Positions 1-11,739 of a DNA stretch of 64,000 nt are shown here, one piece after another (within the stretch, counting starts at the first letter, position 1; each line of letters opens with the position of its first letter). The position numbers and the translations under genes were made by a program. The notes beneath the pieces were generated by a model. The model had not been told where the DNA came from, made no database searches, and saw only the letters and a list, made by a program, of their open reading frames with translations. Origin of the DNA: Marinobacter sp. DY40_1A1 (lineage in GTDB: Bacteria; Pseudomonadota; Gammaproteobacteria; Pseudomonadales; Oleiphilaceae); the NCBI RefSeq assembly GCF_016597815.1, contig NZ_VCHA01000005.1, positions 1-64,000 on the forward strand, written 5' to 3'.

Positions 1-57
1 GGCCTGCGCCGATGGTAGTGTGGCATTTGCCCATGTGAGAGTAGGTCATCGTCAGAC
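1..57 (+). rRNA. rrf: 5S ribosomal RNA, 3' end (partial)
   Basis: The first 57 bases match the 3' part of a gammaproteobacterial 5S rRNA: a GCGCCGATGGTAGTGTGG stretch, then CCCATGTGAGAGTAGG and TCATCGTCA. The 5' half lies outside the window, so this is the downstream end of an rRNA operon transcribed rightward. The exact mature 3' end is estimated by comparison with the known Pseudomonas-type 5S and may be off by a few bases. A strong terminator follows directly. Confidence 0.92.
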
Positions 58-67
58 TCTTAAGTCC

Positions 68-101
68 AAACCCCAGCTTCTTGCGAAGCTGGGGTTTTTT
101 T
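68..101 (+). terminator. rRNA operon terminator
   Basis: A perfect 13-bp stem (68-80 with 85-97) closes a TTGC loop and runs into a tract of seven T residues (95-101). It ends the rRNA operon. The left side also carries As, so it could serve the converging minus-strand gene that stops at 155. Confidence 0.9.
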
Positions 102-154: not shown

Positions 155-835
155 TTAAGGAAGCCATATCTCGAAAACACCACCACCCAATTCACCGCCA
201 TTGTGGAGCTTGATGTAGCCCTTTCGATCTCCTTCGCTATGAAGGTTGGCGACAGCAGATACGAAGAAGAGACCAAGGCTGGTACTTCCTGTATTAAAAT
301 CTAAAGACTTGAAGCTAAGGGGCCCTGTATGTTGCATACTTTCGGGGTATCCCTCTCCATCGTCTTCTACCCGGATTACAAGGTAACCTTCACGTTCGGC
401 TGCAGTTAGTTTGATCTCGCTCTTTGTATACCGTATAGCGTTGTTGATGGTGTTGTTCAGGACCCCTGTAAGTAGATCTGTATCAAAGAAACCGTTTATA
501 TCGTCGGACTCAATAGAGCACTCAATTCCCAACCCCTCCAGAAGCGGTGTATGCCTGGCAAGGTGTTCAGACAAAAACTCAGAAACGGAATGTTCTTCTA
601 TATGGGCTGACAGGTTATTTTCGCCTAGCCGGTATATTCCCAGAAGCTGTACCAGATCGTTGTGTATTCGCTCAGCTTCGTATTGGAGAGTATTAAACTT
701 TGAGGACTCGGTAAGCTTTGCTTCATTTTCTGCTCGAAGTTCGTCCAGTGAGTTGAGCAGCATCCCCAGCGAGTTTTTCATATCATGTACCGCCAGAGCG
801 AGAACCATAGAAAAGTCGATGTTTCGGTTTTTCAT
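155..835 (-). CDS. Small soluble sensor histidine kinase
   Basis: A 226-residue cytoplasmic histidine kinase with no membrane segment and no recognisable sensor domain. The likely phosphoacceptor is His17 in a LAVHDMKNSLG H-box. The ATPase part shows the N-box around Asn127-Asn132 (NNTINNAIRY), a DDGEGYP G1 box near 158-163 and a GSTSLGLFF G2-like box near 183-191. Its ATG overlaps the TGA of the upstream TPR response regulator (ATGA at 832-835), so the two are translationally coupled. It is the last gene of a three-gene signalling operon. Without its own sensor it probably takes its input from, or passes phosphate to, the other two proteins; that is inference. It could also act mainly as a phosphatase or phosphodonor for the regulator. 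Confidence 0.8.
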   Translation of the reverse strand: MKNRNIDFSMVLALAVHDMKNSLGMLLNSLDELRAENEAKLTESSKFNTLQYEAERIHNDLVQLLGIYRLGENNLSAHIEEHSVSEFLSEHLARHTPLLEGLGIECSIESDDINGFFDTDLLTGVLNNTINNAIRYTKSEIKLTAAEREGYLVIRVEDDGEGYPESMQHTGPLSFKSLDFNTGSTSLGLFFVSAVANLHSEGDRKGYIKLHNGGELGGGVFEIWLP

Positions 836-2463
836 AGGGTTAGTGCCTTCAGTTTTCGTTGTAGAGCCAGGTAGCGCCTGTATTGCCCATGCTGCTCAGG
901 AAGATCATCCAAACGACTAATATGTTGCTGGCAGCGATCAGTCAGCTTGTCGATCGAGCCGGTATCTTCATGTTGTTTGATTAAGACCTGTATCAGATTC
1001 AGGTTAAGGGCGGGGTGATCTGGAATTATCTCAAGTGCTTTAGAGAAGGTTTCCTCTGCCTCTTTAAGTGCTCCGGATTCGAAAGCTGCGATCCCCTCCC
1101 GGTTAAGGCCGCGGGCTTTGATCTTCATGCGAAAGCTGACGGGTTCGTCTAACAGGCTTTCGATCTTTCTGGCTGCTTCAGGATCTTCACCATAGCTTTC
1201 GTGTAGGCGTGCCAGCAGCGTTTTTGCCTCCCTTACGTTGTCCAGGCGATACAAGGTTTTTGCGTAGTCCAGCCCCATCTCCAACTCCAGTGGGTGAATC
1301 TCGCTTAGCCTCTCGCTGATGCTTTCCAGCATTGAATTAGCTTTCTCCACTTCCCCGCGTCCTGCCTGTATTCTGCATTGGATAACCAGGCTATGAAGTT
1401 CAAGGGTTTTACTTTCCGAAAACTGTCTTTCCATGCTGGCAAGAACTGATATGGCTTCATGTGCTAATGCTTGGCTCCCTTCATCCGTATCACCATCGCT
1501 CAGGTCGCAAAGCGCGTGAGCTAGTGCTATATGGTGGTCGGGACTGTGATGAATGGAGTGAGCACCAAGACGAACCGTTTGCCGCCATGCTTCTGTAGCT
1601 GTTTCCATGTCCTGATTGGCTTCTGCCAGCTCCGCCAAGTGCTTTTGACGAAGCAGGGCGTTTGGGGAGCGGGTTGTTGCCAGTTCCAGAACGTTCTGGG
1701 CTTGCCCTGAGCGGTTTTGACGTTCCAGTCCCTCTGCCAAAAGGTCGTAGGCCTCCATATAGTCCGGGTGGCTCTTAATCAATTTTCGCAAGCTTTCAAC
1801 TGCTTCGTCGTAGCGATGGTTCGCAAGGAGCACTTTATTGCGTCCGACTCGGGCCCATGAAAGTTCGCGCTGGGAAAGAACCTCGTCATACACCTTGATT
1901 GCGTAGGATAGATCCCCTAACAGGAAATAGAGTTCTCCCAAGGTTTTCATTAACCATGTTTTGTACCGCGGTAGTCGCGAGAGGGCTGCATTGCAAAGCG
2001 AAATGGCTTCCGGATAATTTTCCCGGTCTATTTCGCGGTTGATCGGGAGTAAAGCGTTGCGTTGACTTATCAGGCTGCTAAGACGCTTTTCCAGCATTGC
2101 GTGGTTGATTGGCTTCGTGAGGTAGGCATCTGGTTGGTATTCTCGGGCGCCCATTACCATTTCTCTGGATGACTCCGACGTGACCATGAGAAACAGGGAG
2201 GACCTTTTCAAAAGCTTTTTATGACGCAGCTCCTCTAAAATGTGTTGGCCGTTTTTGCCCTTGCCCAAGTTATAGTCACAGAGCACTACATCAACGTGGT
2301 TGTAGGTGCAATATTCAATGGCGGGTTTGGCATGGGCCACCAGCTCAACATTATCTGCACCGCAGCTGCGAAGCATATGACGCATAGAGATCCTGAAGTT
2401 CTCAAAGTCGTCAACGACCAGGTAAGACAGCTTTCCAAAAACATTTTCGTTGGGATCACTCAT
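832..2463 (-). CDS. Response regulator with C-terminal TPR repeats
   Basis: A 543-residue protein with an N-terminal receiver domain (about 10-135) carrying the acidic pair Asp18-Asp19, the phosphoacceptor Asp63 in VLCDYNLG and the conserved Lys117 in YLTKP. From about 150 to the end it is helical with tetratricopeptide-like units, e.g. AIKVYDEVLSQ and a clear terminal repeat GIAAFESGALKEAEETFSKA. No DNA-binding, GGDEF, EAL or HD domain is visible, so output is probably by protein binding. Its start overlaps the stop of the upstream hybrid kinase (ATGA, 2460-2463) and its stop overlaps the start of the downstream kinase, implying fixed stoichiometry. Known CrbS-type kinases usually act on a LuxR-type regulator; none is adjacent here. 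Confidence 0.85.
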   Translation of the reverse strand: MSDPNENVFGKLSYLVVDDFENFRISMRHMLRSCGADNVELVAHAKPAIEYCTYNHVDVVLCDYNLGKGKNGQHILEELRHKKLLKRSSLFLMVTSESSREMVMGAREYQPDAYLTKPINHAMLEKRLSSLISQRNALLPINREIDRENYPEAISLCNAALSRLPRYKTWLMKTLGELYFLLGDLSYAIKVYDEVLSQRELSWARVGRNKVLLANHRYDEAVESLRKLIKSHPDYMEAYDLLAEGLERQNRSGQAQNVLELATTRSPNALLRQKHLAELAEANQDMETATEAWRQTVRLGAHSIHHSPDHHIALAHALCDLSDGDTDEGSQALAHEAISVLASMERQFSESKTLELHSLVIQCRIQAGRGEVEKANSMLESISERLSEIHPLELEMGLDYAKTLYRLDNVREAKTLLARLHESYGEDPEAARKIESLLDEPVSFRMKIKARGLNREGIAAFESGALKEAEETFSKALEIIPDHPALNLNLIQVLIKQHEDTGSIDKLTDRCQQHISRLDDLPEQHGQYRRYLALQRKLKALTL

Positions 2464-5400
2464 GAGCGTTTCTGTTTCAGTAACTTATTCACCATAGCTC
2501 TCAAAGCTGCGGGTTTAACCGGTTTATAGAGGATCTGATAACCACGATCAATAGCATCCTCCCGCACTTCCGGAGCCATATACCCTGTTATGAGAATGCC
2601 TGGTACGTCGTGTTGAACCGATTCGCGTATGGAATCCATTGCGTCCAGCCCGTTTTTATCGTCATCAAGCTGGTAATCCGCAAGTATAATGTCGGGCGTC
2701 CTGCCTTCTAGCTTTTCCAAGGCATTTTCCAGGCTCTCAGCAGGTGTGATATCGCACCCCCAGTTTCCTAATAAGGCGACCATTCCCTGCAGTATTGCAG
2801 GGTCGTTATCGATGCAGAGAACGTTCAGGCCACCAAGACTGGAAACGCGGCGAGAGGTTTTTGCGGTAATCTTCTCTGTGGCTTGGTGAGCCTCGCCGGC
2901 CTGCGCAAGTGGAACGGTTACTGCAAAGACACTGCCTTTGCCCTGCACTGATTGCACACTTACAGGGTAGTCCAACATTCCGCTGATACGGTCGACGATT
3001 GCTAAACCCAGGCCTAAACCTTTTTTGTCCTTTCCATGCTGAAAGCGGCGGAATTCCTCGAAAATCAGGGTTAGCTGGTCTTCCGGTATACCCGGGCCTG
3101 TATCCCAAACCTCTATGCGCAGGTAACCTTTCAGGCGCCTGCATCCCATCAGGATTTTACCTTTCGTCGTATAGCGAATTGCGTTGGAAAGGAAGTTTTG
3201 TATCACCCGTCTGAGCAGTTTTGCGTCTGAGTATATCCAGGCGGTGCTAGGTACTACATGCAGCTTGAGGCCTTGGTCCTCTGCAATCGCTGTAAAGTCA
3301 GTTGCCAGGTGGCGCATAATATCGTTAACCGGAAAAGCACCAAGGTCTGGTTCCAGAGCGCCTGCGTCGAGTTTGGAAATATCAAGGAGGGTGCTGATGA
3401 TCTCTTCTGCTGCACCGAGTGAACTGTCGATGTGATCAACAAGTTCTCCTATCTCAGTGCTGGTGGCTTTGCCAGCAAGTGCTGAAGTAAAAAGGCGAGC
3501 GGCATTGAGGGGCTGCAGGAGGTCGTGACTGGCGGCGGCCAGAAAGCGGGTTTTACTTTGGTTCGCCTTCTCAGCAACCGACTTGGCTTTGAGCATCTGC
3601 TCGTTGATTACCTGCAGTTCCTGAGTTCGTTCTTTGACACGCTGTTCAAGATAGGTGTTGGTCTCTTTCAGGGCCTGCTCAGTACGGCGCATGGCTGTAA
3701 TATCCTGAAATGTCGTGACATAGCCGCCACCGGGGATTGGGCTGCCATCTATCTTGACGACGGTTCCGTCAGGCCTCTGACGCTCATAGGATATGCGTTT
3801 GCCTTCGCGCATGCTGGCGTAGTGGTCGGAGATGATTTCATCAATACGCCGTGCTGGCAGGTGGACGTTCGTCAGGTTATACCGCATCAGGTCTTCTGCA
3901 GGTCTACCGGCTTTCACAAACCCTTTCGGATAGCTGAAAAGCTCAAGGTAGCGTTGATTCCAGACCACTACTTGCTGCTGCTGGTTTACCACTGATACGC
4001 CAAGACTGATATTCTCAATAGCCGATTGCAGCAGTTCCCGGCTGAAAGTCATGGCTTGCGAGGCTTCATCAACGATGCTGACCACGTCTTCGATCTGCAT
4101 GTCGCGGCCCGTGAGGGTCGATTCCAGCACAACCCTGGCTGTAGATGCCCCAATCACCGACGCAAGCTGGCGTTCTACATATTTCATCAGGTGGGAGGAT
4201 GCAGGGCGATGCAGATGCAGCCTCACTGCATTGCGGCGCTCATAATTATGAAAAATGGTCTCAGAGCGTTCCTCACCCATAAACCTGTCGCTAAGTGCTT
4301 GCAGGTCTGATGTGAGTATTTCACCTTGCCAGCTTTGGTGATGGACCGTATCGCCTTTTGGATGCGGGTCCTGAAAGAATGAGGCAATCTGTATTTTCTC
4401 GCGCACTCTTTGCTGGGTTACCAGTGAAAGCAGCACGTAAACCAGAGTGTTTGTGCCCAAGCTCCAGATAATGCCGTGGCTGGTCTCGTCGAGGTCCAGT
4501 CCGAAAAGAGCGGTCGGTCTGGTCCAGCTTAGTCCCCATATACCTTCGTTAATGAGTGAATCACTAAACCAGCCTGTTGATGCCAAGGCGGGAAGCAAAA
4601 GAGTGTAGCACCATATAAGAAATCCCAGGCCCAGCCCCCAGGCTGCGCCGGTGGCATTTCCGCGCCGCCACAGAATACCGCCTACCAAAGCAGGCCCAAA
4701 TTGGGCGGCTGCAGCGAAAGATAAAAGTCCGAACGAGGTCAGGCTGTAATCTTCTCCCGCCATACGGTAAAAACCATAAGCCGTCAGCAGAACCACAAAA
4801 ATAGCCACTCTGCGAATACCCAATAGCAGAGAACTCAGGTCGGCTTGCCGGTTCATCCTGGGACGGAAGAACTTCAGCAGGGCAGGCATGATGATTTCAT
4901 TGCTTACCATGGTGGCGATGGCAACGGAGCAAACGATAACCATGGCAGCAGCAGCTGAGCCGCCGCCGAGGAACGCGAGAATCGCCAGCCACTCTTTGCC
5001 GGCCATAATTGGTAGCTGCAGAATGAGAATGTCCGGGTTACTTGCAATTGCTTCTGGCGCCAAAAGACCAGCGGCTGCAATGGGCAGAACAAAGGCGCTG
5101 GCCACAACGAGATAGACGGGCATTGCCCAGCGAGCGACTTCGAAGTCCCGGTGATCGGCGTTCTCGACTACCATTACGTGGAACTGTCTTGGCAGACAGA
5201 TAATGGCAAGCATGGCAACGAGTGTCTGGGTGATGAACGCAGGCGCTTCAAGGCCATCGGTTGTAAGAATGCCGGTCAGGTTGGCTTCCTTTATATTACC
5301 TACCAAGTCGCCAAAGCCATTATAAAGCCCATACCCAACGAATAGCCCAACAGCTACAAAGGCAATAAGTTTGATCAGTGATTCAAATGCCACGGCCTGA

Positions 5401-5981
5401 ATCATGCCGCGGTGGTGCTCTGTAGATTCCAAATGACGAGTGCCAAAAAGAACGGTAAATGCAGTTAGCGCGAGGGTAATGTACCAGGCCGCGTCGCTCC
5501 AGGCTGCTGTGCTTAACTCCTGGCTACCTGTGCCAGTGTTGGACAGCACACTAAAGCCCATTGCGATGGCTTTAAGCTGCAGTGCGATGTATGGCACGCT
5601 GCCAATCAGCGCAAAGGCCGCAATCATGGCGGCTAGCAGCTGGGACTTGCCATAGCGAGAAGCAATAAAGTCTGCGATAGAGGTGCTGTTGTTGCGCTTG
5701 CTAATATAAATGATACGTCTCAGCAGTGGCGCACCGAATACAAAGACCAGCAAGGGGCCCAGGTAGATAGGCAGAAAACCCAGGCCTTCTTGAGTGGCTC
5801 GGCCTACGGCTCCATAGAATGTCCAGGAAGTAAAATAGACGGCCAAAGACAGCGAATAAACATGCGTTCTGGCGAAGCGCCGGCTATAAAGTCCTGGATG
5901 CTTATCACCCGCCCAAGCGATGATAAACAGGATAGATATGTAGGTGATGGAAATTAAAACCAGCAGCCAGACACTAATCAT
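2460..5981 (-). CDS. Sodium:solute symporter-fused hybrid histidine kinase (CrbS/MxtR-like)
   Basis: A 1173-residue inner-membrane sensor. Residues 1 to about 520 form a sodium:solute symporter (SSS) domain with roughly 13 hydrophobic segments. A PAS domain begins near 650 (ENISLGVSVVNQQQQVVVWN) and is followed by a short coiled coil. The HisKA domain has phosphoacceptor His819 in FLAAASHDLLQPLNA. The HATPase domain shows NFLSNAIRYT and GLGLGLAIVDR. A C-terminal receiver has phosphoacceptor Asp1102 (ILADYQLDD) and conserved Lys in LYKPVKP. This architecture is that of CrbS/MxtR/CbrA-family kinases, which control acetate or carbon use in Vibrio and Pseudomonas. The adjacent symporter operon fits such a role. 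The actual ligand is not shown by the sequence. It starts a coupled three-gene signalling operon. Confidence 0.88.
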   Translation of the reverse strand: MISVWLLVLISITYISILFIIAWAGDKHPGLYSRRFARTHVYSLSLAVYFTSWTFYGAVGRATQEGLGFLPIYLGPLLVFVFGAPLLRRIIYISKRNNSTSIADFIASRYGKSQLLAAMIAAFALIGSVPYIALQLKAIAMGFSVLSNTGTGSQELSTAAWSDAAWYITLALTAFTVLFGTRHLESTEHHRGMIQAVAFESLIKLIAFVAVGLFVGYGLYNGFGDLVGNIKEANLTGILTTDGLEAPAFITQTLVAMLAIICLPRQFHVMVVENADHRDFEVARWAMPVYLVVASAFVLPIAAAGLLAPEAIASNPDILILQLPIMAGKEWLAILAFLGGGSAAAAMVIVCSVAIATMVSNEIIMPALLKFFRPRMNRQADLSSLLLGIRRVAIFVVLLTAYGFYRMAGEDYSLTSFGLLSFAAAAQFGPALVGGILWRRGNATGAAWGLGLGFLIWCYTLLLPALASTGWFSDSLINEGIWGLSWTRPTALFGLDLDETSHGIIWSLGTNTLVYVLLSLVTQQRVREKIQIASFFQDPHPKGDTVHHQSWQGEILTSDLQALSDRFMGEERSETIFHNYERRNAVRLHLHRPASSHLMKYVERQLASVIGASTARVVLESTLTGRDMQIEDVVSIVDEASQAMTFSRELLQSAIENISLGVSVVNQQQQVVVWNQRYLELFSYPKGFVKAGRPAEDLMRYNLTNVHLPARRIDEIISDHYASMREGKRISYERQRPDGTVVKIDGSPIPGGGYVTTFQDITAMRRTEQALKETNTYLEQRVKERTQELQVINEQMLKAKSVAEKANQSKTRFLAAASHDLLQPLNAARLFTSALAGKATSTEIGELVDHIDSSLGAAEEIISTLLDISKLDAGALEPDLGAFPVNDIMRHLATDFTAIAEDQGLKLHVVPSTAWIYSDAKLLRRVIQNFLSNAIRYTTKGKILMGCRRLKGYLRIEVWDTGPGIPEDQLTLIFEEFRRFQHGKDKKGLGLGLAIVDRISGMLDYPVSVQSVQGKGSVFAVTVPLAQAGEAHQATEKITAKTSRRVSSLGGLNVLCIDNDPAILQGMVALLGNWGCDITPAESLENALEKLEGRTPDIILADYQLDDDKNGLDAMDSIRESVQHDVPGILITGYMAPEVREDAIDRGYQILYKPVKPAALRAMVNKLLKQKRS

Positions 5982-6034: not shown

Positions 6035-6544
6035 TCAGCTGGAACATACCGTTGAATAAAGTTCGTCACTCCTCTCCAGGACCTTGAGGTTGTCTATTCG
6101 CGGTGTTCCGTCTGAGCCGAGAGGAACGAGCTCGCGAGTCGCACAGTTAATGATATGTACCCTGTGAGAAACGGCATCCGTTATCTTCTGTTCGAAGCGA
6201 TACAGTGTAAATCTGACGATATTCGGATTGCTGGTATCTCCCCGGCCGATGCTGTTTGTGTCCACTGTAGAAAACGCAGTTACATAAGGATAGACCAGAG
6301 ACCATGGGCGCCAGAAGATGCCTTTCCGCTCAGTGCTAACGACTACGGCTTCATCAGGCAGGCGCGATTGCTTGTGGTCAAACCAGGTGTATTCTCCGTA
6401 AATCAAATAACCAAGCATACCGATGCCGGCAAATACCGGAATTATCCATTTAGGCGCCATATTGCGGGTTGCGACCCGGATGCCTAAAGCAATACCAGCG
6501 GCACCCAGCCCGCAAAAAACGGTGGCGACAAGAGTCCAGAACAT
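6035..6544 (-). CDS. Hypothetical membrane-anchored protein
   Basis: A 169-residue protein I do not recognise. The N-terminus has two hydrophobic segments (about 5-24 and 33-50), followed by a soluble domain of about 115 residues containing several aromatics (WRPWSLVYPY) and two cysteines (in INCATREL and at the C-terminus TVCSS). Topology suggests the soluble part is either periplasmic or cytoplasmic with both helices as a hairpin anchor; this cannot be decided here. It lies 53 bases upstream of the transporter-kinase gene on the same strand and 96 bases downstream of the symporter, separated from it by a strong terminator. It could therefore be the first gene of the signalling operon. No function is proposed. 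Confidence 0.7.
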   Translation of the reverse strand: MFWTLVATVFCGLGAAGIALGIRVATRNMAPKWIIPVFAGIGMLGYLIYGEYTWFDHKQSRLPDEAVVVSTERKGIFWRPWSLVYPYVTAFSTVDTNSIGRGDTSNPNIVRFTLYRFEQKITDAVSHRVHIINCATRELVPLGSDGTPRIDNLKVLERSDELYSTVCSS

Positions 6545-6558
6545 AAAATATTTTCCTT

Positions 6559-6593
6559 AAAAAAGAACGGGCTCCCTCATTGAGGAAGCCCGT
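6559..6593 (-). terminator. Rho-independent terminator of the symporter operon
   Basis: Read on the minus strand, a stem of ACGGGCT with AGCCCGT (6587-6593 with 6567-6573), extended by an inner CCTCA/TGAGG pairing, is followed by a T-rich tail (A run at 6559-6564 on the plus strand). It lies immediately past the symporter stop at 6641 and insulates the signalling operon from the transport operon. Confidence 0.87.
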
Positions 6594-6640
6594 CCAGAAC
6601 AACCTGAGAACTCGTTGAGTCAATCAGGCCAGAGTATTAC

Positions 6641-8422
6641 TTAGTGGTCTTGAGCTTGTCCGGCACCGCGTGGGTAACGAACGCTTTCAACCAGCTCCTG
6701 AATCTCAACGGGCGGCTCATCAGTTGCATTGGATACAACGAAGGCTACCGCAAAGTTAACCAGTGCACCAATAGCACCGATCGACAGGGGAGAGATTCCC
6801 AATACCCAGTTTGCAGGCGTGTCCGCAAGGTTAGCTGTGCCTGGAATGAAGAACCATCCTTTGTACACAAAGATATACGAAAGGGTGAACACCAAACCGC
6901 TCAACATGCCCGCAATAGCACCGGTATTGTTAATACGCTTGGAGAATATGCCCATCATCAGAGCGGGGAACAGTGAGGCTGCCGCGATACCGAAAGCCAG
7001 CGCTACAACCTGAGCTGCAAACCCGGGTGGATTGGCACCGAGGTAGGTTGCAACAACAATTGCTATAGCCATGGAGATACGGGCTGCCAGCAGTTCGCCT
7101 TTATCCGTGATGCCCGGATTGATTGAGCCCTTGATCAAGTCATGGCTGACTGCCGAAGATATGGCTAACAGGAGGCCCGCCGCTGTTGATAGTGCGGCAG
7201 CAAGGCCACCTGCAGCAATCAAGCCGATAACCCAGCCAGGGAGGTTAGCGATTTCGGGGTTGGCGAGTACGATGATGTCGCGGTTCACATCAAGCTCATT
7301 GCCTTTCCAGCCACGAGCTTCCGCCTTAGCCTGGAACGCTGTGCCGGGGGCGTCGGATGCATCATTGTACATCTGGATGCGGCCGTCTTCGTTTTTGTCT
7401 GTGAACTTGATCAGGCCAGTAACTTCCCATTCCTTAACCCACTGTGGGCGGTCTTCATATTTAATGGGTTCGGCTGCAGTGCCATCCGGGTATACGGTTG
7501 TCATCAAGTTCAGTCGAGCCATGGATGCAACCGCAGGTGCTGTCAGGTACAGCAAGGCGATGAACACCAAAGCCCAGCCAGCAGACCAGCGCGCATCAGC
7601 AACCTTCGGAACTGTGAAGAAGCGGATGATAACGTGGGGAAGGCCTGCTGTACCGATCATCAGGGTCAGGGTGAACAGAACCATGTTGAGGTGGCTGTCA
7701 ACATCAGCAGAATACTCGCTGAAACCAACATCAGTAATAACCTGGTTCAGCTTGTCGAGAATCGGCATGCCAGAATCAAGGTGTGTTGAGAACAGGCCCA
7801 GTGCCGGAATGGGGTTACCGGTCAACTGGAAGGAAATGAATACAGCTGGAATCGTATAGGCAACGATCAATACGCAGTACTGGGCAACCTGGGTGTAGGT
7901 GATACCTTTCATCCCGCCGAGTACGGAATAGATGAAGATAACGACAGCAGCAATCATCAAGCCTGTTGTGGAATCAACTTCCAGGAAGCGAGAGAAAGCC
8001 ACGCCGGCACCAGCCATCTGGCCGATTACGTACGTCAGGGAGGCAACAATCAGGCAGATTACAGCAACCAGACGAGCTTTTTTGCTGTAGAAACGATCGC
8101 CGATAAATTCCGGAACCGTAAACTTGCCGAATTTACGCAAGTAAGGTGCAAGTAGCATGGCTAGCAGAACGTATCCACCAGTCCAGCCCATCAGGTAGGC
8201 GGAGCTTGCGTAGCCACTGGCGGCAATAATACCTGCCATGGAAATAAAGGATGCCGCAGACATCCAGTCGGCACCAATAGCCATGCCGTTCGTAATAGGG
8301 TGAACGCCGCCGCCAGCAACGTAGAAGTCTTTTGTACTTCCGGCCTTGGCCCAGACAGCAATGAGTATGTAGATGAGGAAGGACCCACCTACAAACATGA
8401 TGTTGATTGCAAATTGGCTCAT
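6641..8422 (-). CDS. Sodium:solute symporter, large subunit (VC_2705-like)
   Basis: A 593-residue inner-membrane transporter of the SSS family, with about 13 hydrophobic segments and the family-typical stretches GGVHPITNGMAIGADWMSAA and GGMKGITYTQVAQY. The small DUF4212 partner immediately upstream places it in the two-subunit VC_2705-type subfamily, related to acetate/pyruvate carriers such as ActP. An extramembrane insert of about 90 residues (about 310-400) carries an EF-hand-like loop starting at Asp342 (DKNEDGRIQMYN), which could bind calcium. The gene starts 4 bases after the small-subunit stop. Substrate is inferred as a short-chain organic acid from the family and from the CrbS-like kinase nearby. 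Confidence 0.9.
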   Translation of the reverse strand: MSQFAINIMFVGGSFLIYILIAVWAKAGSTKDFYVAGGGVHPITNGMAIGADWMSAASFISMAGIIAASGYASSAYLMGWTGGYVLLAMLLAPYLRKFGKFTVPEFIGDRFYSKKARLVAVICLIVASLTYVIGQMAGAGVAFSRFLEVDSTTGLMIAAVVIFIYSVLGGMKGITYTQVAQYCVLIVAYTIPAVFISFQLTGNPIPALGLFSTHLDSGMPILDKLNQVITDVGFSEYSADVDSHLNMVLFTLTLMIGTAGLPHVIIRFFTVPKVADARWSAGWALVFIALLYLTAPAVASMARLNLMTTVYPDGTAAEPIKYEDRPQWVKEWEVTGLIKFTDKNEDGRIQMYNDASDAPGTAFQAKAEARGWKGNELDVNRDIIVLANPEIANLPGWVIGLIAAGGLAAALSTAAGLLLAISSAVSHDLIKGSINPGITDKGELLAARISMAIAIVVATYLGANPPGFAAQVVALAFGIAAASLFPALMMGIFSKRINNTGAIAGMLSGLVFTLSYIFVYKGWFFIPGTANLADTPANWVLGISPLSIGAIGALVNFAVAFVVSNATDEPPVEIQELVESVRYPRGAGQAQDH

Positions 8423-8426
8423 ACGC

Positions 8427-8690
8427 TTACTCCTCGTCCACGCCGAATTGTTTATCGAGTCTGTTCATGCGCCACGCGTAGTGGAAGATGAGTCCAATGA
8501 ACGTGAGAATAGAACCCTGTTGGGCAAACCAGAAACCCAAATCGGTTCCGCCGATTGGGATACCTGAAAGCATAGGGCGCAGAACGATTCCAAAACCGTA
8601 TGAGACCAGAGCCCAGACAATCAGGCTCCCAAATATAAGGCGAAGGTTCGCCTTCCAGTACTTTTCAGCATCGTAGCTATGACCTGACAT
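8427..8690 (-). CDS. DUF4212 family small subunit of sodium:solute symporter
   Basis: An 87-residue protein with two hydrophobic segments (about 17-36 and 47-68) and the typical YWKANLRLIFGSLIVWA and GFWFAQQGS stretches of the DUF4212 / Na-symporter small-subunit family. It is the first gene of the transport operon, with the large subunit starting only 4 bases downstream. A GTCCTA-poor but GGAG-like site (AGGAGTAATCC on the minus strand) precedes its ATG. Members are thought to be obligatory partners of the large subunit in the membrane. Confidence 0.9.
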   Translation of the reverse strand: MSGHSYDAEKYWKANLRLIFGSLIVWALVSYGFGIVLRPMLSGIPIGGTDLGFWFAQQGSILTFIGLIFHYAWRMNRLDKQFGVDEE

Positions 8691-8899: not shown

Positions 8900-9607
8900 T
8901 CACACCCCGTGAATGCTTTGCAGTCGGCGATGGTAGCGTAGTTTATCGTGCAGCTCCTTCAGGGTTTTCAAGCCGCTTTTATGGGCCTTGTTCAGTGCGA
9001 TGAGGGTTAACTCGGCAGTCGCCAGGGCATCGGAAGCAGCATGGTGTCTGGCACTGACCTCAAGGCCAAAAAAGTCTGCCCAGTGATCAAGCCCCTTGCC
9101 TCCGGTGAGGGCGTCCGGAAAGAATGCAGGTAACAGATCTGCCACATCCATCCAAGTGTGGTTTCGGGTATAGCCGAGCTCAGCTTTCAGGGTTTTCTCC
9201 AAAAACTTTTGATCAAATGCAGAGTGATATGCGAGCACCGGATCACCGTTCATCCATTCCAGCAAAAACAGTAATGCGTCCTCGGTTTCGTGGCCTTGAG
9301 TGAGAGCTTCCGGCCCGATGCCGTGAATCAGTACTGTCTCGGTTAAGTCCAGTTCAGGGCGCCGCAAAATCAGATCGAATTGGTCGCTGAGATCTATAGC
9401 CCCTCCGTTGATGGCCACTGCACCAACGGCAATGACCTCATCCTTGCTTGCATTCAAGCCTGTGGTCTCTAGATCCAGTACTATCAGGCGGCACTCTGAG
9501 AGCAGTTGATCCCCGGGGACTTTGGGGTTGGGTGTCTTCTCTGGCGCAATGTTGCCAGTCTGGCCACCGCGGCGGCGTTCAATCCACTGCTTGATCTGTT
9601 CCAACAT
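8900..9607 (-). CDS. DnaQ-like DEDDh 3'-5' exonuclease
   Basis: A 235-residue protein with a complete DEDDh exonuclease set: Asp45 and Glu47 in LIVLDLETTG, Asp132 in YHSAFDQKF, His188 and Asp193 in HHAASDALATAEL. It resembles the epsilon-type proofreading family but lacks the dnaE-binding tail and is much shorter than PolC-type fusions. A basic N-terminal extension of about 38 residues (RRRGGQ) precedes the catalytic domain. It starts 17 bases after the stop of the cNMP/CBS/nucleotidyltransferase gene, so the two form an operon. Its substrate is unknown; degradation of a small nucleotide or short RNA/DNA is possible. Confidence 0.85.
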   Translation of the reverse strand: MLEQIKQWIERRRGGQTGNIAPEKTPNPKVPGDQLLSECRLIVLDLETTGLNASKDEVIAVGAVAINGGAIDLSDQFDLILRRPELDLTETVLIHGIGPEALTQGHETEDALLFLLEWMNGDPVLAYHSAFDQKFLEKTLKAELGYTRNHTWMDVADLLPAFFPDALTGGKGLDHWADFFGLEVSARHHAASDALATAELTLIALNKAHKSGLKTLKELHDKLRYHRRLQSIHGV

Positions 9608-9624: not shown

Positions 9625-11541
9625 TCAGAGTTGATAGGTAACTTCGAGTTTCTGTTGCAGGCGTTGGGCCTGCCGGAAAGACTCACGGAGAATTCGCCTG
9701 TCCAGCGGATTCAGATCGTCCGGATCTATGTAGTTGGTGAGTTCGTCTCCGCGCTCCAGCATTTCCTGATGGGAACGCATGCGGATAGCCTGTATGAGGC
9801 TGTAGGCATCTTTCCATGCGTTAGCATCTTTTGCATCGAAAACGCCTGCTTTCGTAAGGTCGTCCATTCTTTCAAGTGTGTTTGCGCTTTTTACTCCATT
9901 GGCCAAGGCAAACACGCGTACTGACTCCACAAAAGGCGCAAGGCCTTGGCGCTTCAAATCGAGACTGCGCTTTTTGCCGTCCGTGACATAACGAAAATTG
10001 CGGAACATGGTTAGCGGCGGCTTTCTCTGAAATGCGTTGCCTGCCAGCATTTTCTGGAACAGGGCATTTTTCTGGATTCTAGTGAGCACTTTATCGAGGA
10101 GTTCATCCAGCGAGTCTGTTGGGCCATAAATGGCTCTCATATCCAGGAAGATGGATGAATACACAAGGTTTTGTGGGGTGGAGGCGTCTATGAACCGGAC
10201 GAACCAGTCGTCCCATTCGCGGTCGCTCAGGCACAACTTTGGGTTGCTGGCCATGATGTTGCCTTTGCACAGAGTGAATCCGCACTCTGCAAGCTCATCG
10301 TTAACGACCCGGGCAAATGGCAGCAGCTTTTCCCGCACCTGATCTTCCGTCATGCCGTCAGGCGTTTGAAACAGGATGCCGTTGTCCTGGTCGGTCAGCA
10401 GAGTTTGCTCTTGCCGGCCCTCACTGCCGAATGTGAGCCAGGTAAAGGGTATGCCCGGGTCATTTTTCTTGATGTTAAGCTCAAGCACACGGCGCACAGT
10501 AACGTCGTTAAGCGTGGTTATGATCTTCACAACTTGCCCTGAATCAGCACCGTGGGCCAGCATGGCATCTACCAGTCGTGAAACGTCTGTGCGCAGGCTA
10601 ACCAGAGTTCTCAAGTGGGTTGCGGTGCCAATTGTTCTGGCCAGGCTAACCAGATCCACTCGCTGCAGGGAAAACAGGTCTCGCTCGGATACCATTCCAA
10701 TCAAGCAGTTATTCTCGTCCACCAGGCACAGGTGCGAAAAATGGTGTTCTGCCATTAGCATGGCTGCGGCAAAAGCATCTGCCGTTGCGGGCAGACAGCA
10801 AGGATCTTTTGTCATGATCTGGCGTACCGGGGCATCCAGAGAGCAGGTGTCTTCTGCAATCATGGTGCGCAGGTCCCGGAGGGTGAAAATCCCGGCGGGG
10901 TGCCGGTTATCATCAGTGATAACAATGCTGCCAACGTTATTCTCATGCATCCTGGCAACAGCTTTACGCACAGGCAAATCCGGCGTACATACAATCGGAT
11001 TGCGAAGCGCATAACGGTCTAGAGGGGTGCTCAGGGATATGCTGGAGCCCATTGATGCCATTGCGCCGGTTTGTATGCGCTGGTTCACTTGGTCGAGCAG
11101 ACTGCTTACGCCACGCAAACAAAAGTCACGGAAGGGCTCGCTTTCGGATATCAGGGTAATAAAGGCATCCTGTTCGATGCTCAGGCAGAAGGTGTCTCCG
11201 GCCGCGCGGTGCAGTGTCCGGGTGGGCCGTTCGCCTACAATGGCCGCCAGAGGAAAGCACTCGCCAATACTTATTTCGAAGGTGGTCTCGGTTTTGTCGG
11301 CTTTGTCATTATGGCGTTCGCCGCGAATCCGTCCCTGTTTAACAACGTAGAATCTGTTAACAACACCATCTTCTGCAGCGAGAACAACATCACCATCGGC
11401 ATAGAAACGCAGCGTGGCGTGTTCTGCAAAGTGCGCGAGGTGGTCATCGTCCATGTTGGAGAAGGGTGCATGTGCTTGCAGGAAGACCATAATGGAGCGG
11501 GTATTCTGCGGTCGTGTATTGTCCTGGTTGGAAGCTGCCAT
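9625..11541 (-). CDS. cNMP-binding / CBS / DUF294 putative nucleotidyltransferase
   Basis: A 638-residue soluble protein with four modules in order: a cyclic-nucleotide-binding-like domain (about 20-150), two CBS repeats (about 175-235 and 240-298), a DUF294 nucleotidyltransferase-like domain with GSEGR at 372-376 and DQD at 384-386, and a helical DUF294 C-terminal domain (about 480-625). The GSxxR and DxD motifs match GlnD-type nucleotidyltransferase active sites. CBS pairs commonly bind adenine nucleotides. It likely senses nucleotide status and modifies a protein or nucleotide; the target is unknown. Downstream lie the exonuclease and then the symporter operon, an arrangement I recall as frequent beside acetate-type symporters. 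Confidence 0.88.
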   Translation of the reverse strand: MAASNQDNTRPQNTRSIMVFLQAHAPFSNMDDDHLAHFAEHATLRFYADGDVVLAAEDGVVNRFYVVKQGRIRGERHNDKADKTETTFEISIGECFPLAAIVGERPTRTLHRAAGDTFCLSIEQDAFITLISESEPFRDFCLRGVSSLLDQVNQRIQTGAMASMGSSISLSTPLDRYALRNPIVCTPDLPVRKAVARMHENNVGSIVITDDNRHPAGIFTLRDLRTMIAEDTCSLDAPVRQIMTKDPCCLPATADAFAAAMLMAEHHFSHLCLVDENNCLIGMVSERDLFSLQRVDLVSLARTIGTATHLRTLVSLRTDVSRLVDAMLAHGADSGQVVKIITTLNDVTVRRVLELNIKKNDPGIPFTWLTFGSEGRQEQTLLTDQDNGILFQTPDGMTEDQVREKLLPFARVVNDELAECGFTLCKGNIMASNPKLCLSDREWDDWFVRFIDASTPQNLVYSSIFLDMRAIYGPTDSLDELLDKVLTRIQKNALFQKMLAGNAFQRKPPLTMFRNFRYVTDGKKRSLDLKRQGLAPFVESVRVFALANGVKSANTLERMDDLTKAGVFDAKDANAWKDAYSLIQAIRMRSHQEMLERGDELTNYIDPDDLNPLDRRILRESFRQAQRLQQKLEVTYQL

Positions 11542-11591: not shown

Positions 11592-11739
11592 GACCGCGTC
11601 TCCACCCTACGATTTTGGTCGAATCTGCGACCGCTCTTAAAATGCGTGGAACAACTACGAGTAATCCCCCAGCTTTCTTTATGGAAGGACTGGCGGGTGG
11701 TAAGGTCTATTCATTCAGCAGGTTATTGAAAGCACGGCC

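Follow-up and report, generated by a model that had tools for sequence, protein, structure and literature searches.

We analysed three signalling genes at the start of a 64,000-nucleotide stretch of DNA from Marinobacter sp. DY40_1A1 (contig NZ_VCHA01000005.1, positions 1 to 64,000; the window). A first-pass annotation, made from the letters alone, had described them as a coupled triad of a transporter-fused kinase (CrbS), a response regulator with tetratricopeptide repeats (RR-TPR) and a small kinase. All three open reading frames were confirmed on the minus strand and are transcribed in the order crbS, RR-TPR, small kinase, with the 4-nucleotide ATGA overlaps at both junctions that the annotation had described:

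155–835, minus strand: small cytoplasmic histidine kinase, 226 amino acids; DHp helices 8–36 and 45–71, CA domain to residue 226
832–2463, minus strand: RR-TPR response regulator, 543 amino acids; receiver, helix 121–146, TPR superhelix 150–542
2460–5981, minus strand: CrbS/MxtR-type hybrid kinase, 1,173 amino acids; multi-transmembrane SLC5-like part at the N terminus, PAS 655–769, HisKA 810–874 (His819), HATPase 919–1026, receiver 1054–1164 (Asp1102)

The residues singled out at the outset, His819 and Asp1102 of CrbS, Asp63 of RR-TPR and His17 of the small kinase, are all as named. We find that the interest of the locus lies in its last two genes, which form a widespread pair, and not in the triad.

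The RR-TPR gene lies directly 5′ of the small-kinase gene, on the same strand and in the same order, at all 80 named loci, in keeping with the earlier view that these two belong together. Of 370 genomes sampled from the class, 42 (about one in nine) encode the small kinase. With the source genome excluded, 41 genomes of the class were kinase-positive, and RR-TPR stood directly 5′ of the kinase in 38 of them; within the order this held for 36 of 41 kinase matches. Several of the exceptions were short contigs, broken genes or weak matches. Clustering of 40 neighbourhoods returned no family besides the pair itself in more than six loci, and a membrane-anchored receiver protein (see below) in four. 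We conclude from sequence comparison that the small kinase and RR-TPR form an older, widespread pair in their own right. PADLOC gave no match for the pair or for the membrane-anchored receiver, and a role as a defence system was dropped on that ground. A search of a plasmid collection for a named, annotated homologue yielded a single unannotated Aeromonas record at 27% identity. The literature searched held no experimental study of TPR response regulators or of this kinase/regulator pair; papers on Marinomonas PpoS/R and Vibrio cholerae HubP, considered as leads, were unrelated to it.

Among the named loci, CrbS is encoded upstream of the pair solely in 70 loci of the Marinobacteraceae. No strong CrbS-like neighbour was seen in 40 wider contexts of pairs outside Marinobacter. 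Of 22 pair-bearing genomes from other genera, 14 had no match to CrbS at E ≤ 1e-150, a threshold that a more diverged CrbS could escape. The converse arrangement was also found. RR-TPR is absent from 18 of 110 good Marinobacter genomes, and in one more (G534; L214:5052-5829) a deletion joins the RR-TPR receiver (residues 9–129) to the end of the small kinase (residues 88–226) in a different frame, with crbS intact; this is a natural inactivation of the pair. CrbS was full length and free of internal stops in all 19 of these genomes, and in several pair-less genomes a 5S rRNA gene follows within a few hundred bases of crbS. The genome-wide search for the small kinase among pair-less genomes was confined to one of them, G107. 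Presence and absence of the pair on the CrbS tree require eight changes, which we read mostly as losses because the basal branches carry the pair. We conclude that the pair has been lost about eight times within Marinobacter.

These losses left the histidine-box helix of CrbS unchanged: its leading sequence, SHDLLQPLNAARLFTSAL, is common to the most frequent forms found in species with the pair and in species without it. CrbS and the small kinase have different residues at each of the six specificity positions compared. The three genes do not co-occur obligately, pairs without CrbS and CrbS without the pair both being common. The eight or so natural deletions also serve as a test of a tempting inference from adjacency, that the TPR regulator is the partner of the acetate kinase, and they correct it.

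The 2460–5981 product is a CrbS/MxtR-type transporter-fused hybrid kinase, an identification made at first pass and borne out by its domains, its actP-type neighbour and the contexts of its orthologues. Pfam detected PAS_7, HisKA, HATPase_c and Response_reg, with both phosphoacceptors present. The N terminus holds 16 partly overlapping hydrophobic segments and does not reach the Pfam SSF threshold; full-length orthologues are 37–49% identical. Between the transporter part and PAS, at the position of a STAC domain, the libraries used reported no family model. The kinase–receiver part passes the NahK/ErcS domain model NF041832 (465 bits, cut-off 400).

RR-TPR had been taken to replace the LuxR-type partner of CrbS. 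We dropped this idea because a CrbR-type regulator is present here and universal in the genus: a LuxR-type protein with Response_reg and GerE domains is encoded 40 nucleotides downstream of acs in the same genome, and every one of 110 good Marinobacter genomes has a counterpart (86–100% identity), compared with 92 of 110 for RR-TPR. Outside the genus, a CrbR orthologue (45–65% identical) lies within 5 kb of the CrbS orthologue in seven of eight genomes, often together with acs or actP. The distance between crbS and the LuxR-type gene is normal and no sign of a changed partner, since V. cholerae CrbS is likewise termed an orphan kinase (PMC5436829). The operator of CrbR, ACTU, has been defined in Pseudomonas fluorescens (PMC5715377). 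ACTU-like sites gave moderate scores, 13.8 upstream of acs and 15.0 upstream of the DUF294 gene, with about 0.6 and 0.3 such matches, respectively, expected by chance per 64 kb; the published sites used scored 15.3–20.7. The second of these sites is the top match of the whole window and lies 66 bp 5′ of the CBS/DUF294 gene. The same scan gave nothing above 6.2 at the DUF4212/symporter promoter, and a candidate site there was dropped.

Two side observations concern transporter-fused kinases. The genome encodes a second transporter-fused protein (G000:C14:222349-223731; L037), whose SLC5 part is 30% identical and whose open frame spans 1,000 residues; it is probably CbrA. In the complete genome of Marinobacter similis (L114:4800-8313) the crbS frame seems broken, the first third alone matching in one frame, with RR-TPR and the small kinase still recognizable; the break could be a sequencing error.

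The small kinase is cytoplasmic and sensorless, as first annotated: Pfam finds HATPase_c alone, and there is neither a sensor domain nor a transmembrane segment. Its H-box, HDMKN, contains His17, Asp18 and Asn21, and 18 sequences are invariant at H17, D18, N21, N128, N132, D158, G160, G162, G183, T185, L187 and G188. It thus has the hallmarks of a HisKA kinase, namely an H-box with an acidic residue at +1 and Asn or Thr at +4, together with N and G boxes, and the predicted model is a DHp–CA fold nearest to CpxA and HK853. In the HDxxN box of HisKA kinases the acidic residue is required for kinase activity and the Asn for phosphatase activity (PMC3510030), and the box of the small kinase fits a combination of the two activities. 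RR-TPR consists of Response_reg and TPRs according to Pfam, with no transmembrane segment. Its receiver active site is complete: D18, D19, D63 and K117 do not vary, and the switch position holds Thr or Ser. The fold is predicted with confidence (mean pLDDT 90.7) as a CheY-like receiver, a linker helix and an all-helical TPR superhelix resembling the TPR domain of O-GlcNAc transferase. Compared with the window, 68 Marinobacteraceae loci had median identities of 84% (CrbS), 79% (small kinase) and 64% (RR-TPR); among 73 diverse pairs, conservation was lower in the TPR part than in the receiver. Kinase and receiver diverge in a correlated way (r = 0.72); this is consistent with a pair, but we give it little weight because phylogeny confounds it.

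A third protein may belong with them. In many Marinobacter loci a protein of about 250 residues with a receiver, a coiled coil and a single transmembrane segment is encoded a little behind the small kinase (L216:5169-5918; also L082, L066, L116, L117, L120 and L122), and in four Oleiphilaceae/Hahellaceae loci its gene lies 3–55 nucleotides in front of RR-TPR. Its gene adjoins the pair on one side in some families and on the other side in others, which suggests membership of the same module. Of 110 good Marinobacter genomes, 27 encode it, the source genome not among them, and it persists behind crbS in three pair-less genomes.

We therefore favour, as the likely explanation, two signalling modules in one operon: CrbS acting on CrbR, and the small kinase acting with RR-TPR. 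Sequence shows the two modules, with their adjacency, separate losses and predicted folds; the phosphotransfer steps, the binding output, co-expression and the route of input are what we infer. CrbS, an acetate-type sensor beside an ActP-type symporter, would pass phosphate to the CrbR-type regulator encoded downstream of acs. The small kinase would autophosphorylate on His17 and hand the phosphate to Asp63 of RR-TPR, with Asn21 also allowing its removal. Phosphorylation would reorient the receiver against the TPR superhelix and thereby alter what the superhelix binds; the output is probably protein–protein, as first proposed. Lacking a sensor domain, the kinase most likely receives its input via a partner that binds it, and the TPR domain is the leading candidate for this role. 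The membrane-anchored receiver protein would be a likely second receiver of this module in some relatives. In the Marinobacteraceae, the pair would have become translationally coupled to crbS, so that both modules are co-expressed. Phosphotransfer from CrbS to RR-TPR is not needed in this explanation. As a more tentative elaboration, which we hold to be rather unlikely, the TPR superhelix could be sensor and output at once, binding a cell component and instructing the small kinase either to phosphorylate or to dephosphorylate, with the signal going on to the membrane-anchored second receiver in relatives that have it.

Two points weigh against this explanation. The CrbR-type regulator was assigned through its position and its conserved linkage to CrbS rather than by alignment to the characterized V. 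cholerae or Pseudomonas proteins. The overlap of crbS with RR-TPR is no accident: 57 of 70 Marinobacteraceae loci have a gap of exactly −4 (the others are mostly −1 to +8, and four loci whose branches are early or long have 73–187 nucleotides), and such retention of the ATGA coupling suggests selection for joint expression or stoichiometry. The conserved coupling thus leaves room for a lineage-specific functional link, through cross-talk or a shared complex.

One rival develops the branched phosphorelay suggested at first pass: CrbS would feed RR-TPR as well as CrbR, and RR-TPR, once phosphorylated, would control the small kinase. Hybrid kinases may have more than one target, and together with the retained overlap this speaks for such a relay. 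However, most lineages examined have the pair without CrbS, CrbS outlives about eight losses of the pair with its H-box helix unchanged, it differs from the small kinase at every specificity position compared, and CrbR is universal in Marinobacter. On these sequence grounds the relay through CrbS appears weakened by the natural deletions and the presence of CrbR, is no longer the simplest reading, and strikes us as improbable. The same overlap counts against the opposite extreme, that the pair sits behind crbS for historical reasons, with no functional tie to CrbS or acetate: drift alone would not readily keep it exact over most of the genus. This rival is compatible with the internal mechanism proposed for each module; it gains from the eight or so pair losses without loss of CrbS and from the lack, across the order, of any conserved third neighbour except the membrane receiver. 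We regard it as possible but doubtful.

A further alternative concerns the pair itself. RR-TPR could be mainly a regulatory subunit of a small kinase that works mostly as a phosphatase, with the TPR superhelix sensing and with the dephosphorylation of another receiver, such as the membrane-anchored one, as output. The sensorless kinase with its intact Asn21, the gene for the membrane-anchored receiver adjoining the pair on one side or the other according to family, and the lower conservation of the TPR part all accord with this idea. We nevertheless judge it quite unlikely, as the membrane receiver is absent from most pair-bearing genomes, the source genome included, and the conserved acidic residue and ATP-binding boxes point to a working kinase.

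The CrbS module shares with CrbS/CrbR (MxtR/ErdR) of Vibrio and Pseudomonas the probable SLC5-type transporter fused to PAS–HisKA–HATPase–receiver, the position of crbS by an actP-type symporter operon and the LuxR-type regulator encoded with acs (PMC5715377, PMC5436829), as well as moderately scoring ACTU-like sites near acs and the DUF294 gene. It differs in the two translationally coupled signalling genes after crbS, which are undescribed for the known systems in the literature consulted. CrbS resembles the NahK/ErcS hybrid kinases in its kinase–receiver part, which passes their domain model, but it misses the full-length NahK model (424 versus 1,500 bits) and has a transporter domain in place of the NahK N terminus. 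The pair, in turn, has the predicted DHp–CA fold, HDxxN box, CheY-like receiver and adjacent kinase and regulator genes of HK853/RR468, the CpxA core and CrdS/CrdA, whereas the small kinase, unlike those of classical HisKA pairs, has no sensor or membrane part, and RR-TPR carries a TPR superhelix rather than a DNA-binding or enzyme domain. That superhelix is predicted to be of the kind found in TPR scaffolds (the O-GlcNAc transferase TPR domain and consensus TPR proteins), but it is fused to a receiver and accompanied by no catalytic domain. The analysis thus defines an uncharacterized pair in about one-ninth of the sampled genomes of the class, and the combination of a sensorless kinase with a regulator lacking a DNA-binding domain raises the question of what is sensed and what is bound.

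The triad is flanked by the end of an rRNA operon, which lies convergently behind the small kinase and within whose 5S gene the contig starts, and by the actP-type operon:

1–57, plus strand: 5S rRNA gene, 3′ end at the contig edge, convergent with the triad; assigned from the 5S genes behind crbS in relatives
68–97, plus strand: terminator hairpin of the rRNA operon
6035–6544, minus strand: conserved small membrane protein, 169 amino acids; by position the first gene of the crbS transcription unit
6565–6595, minus strand: strong intrinsic terminator 3′ of the symporter gene, dividing the actP-type operon from the crbS unit
6641–8422, minus strand: VC_2705-family sodium/solute (ActP-type) symporter; TIGR03648, 836 bits (cut-off 321)
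8427–8690, minus strand: DUF4212 partner of the symporter
8900–9607, minus strand: 3′–5′ exonuclease-domain protein, a conserved neighbour
9625–11541, minus strand: cNMP/CBS/DUF294 putative signalling nucleotidyltransferase, often adjoining crbS/actP loci
11608–11624, plus strand: ACTU-like inverted repeat (resembling a CrbR site), 66 bp 5′ of the DUF294 start codon (11541)

The 169-residue membrane protein had no Pfam or NCBIfam match; across Marinobacter its gene separates crbS from the symporter gene, and in another family (L196) it comes after the symporter. The closest named loci are from Marinobacter, and the kinase of the window places among them.

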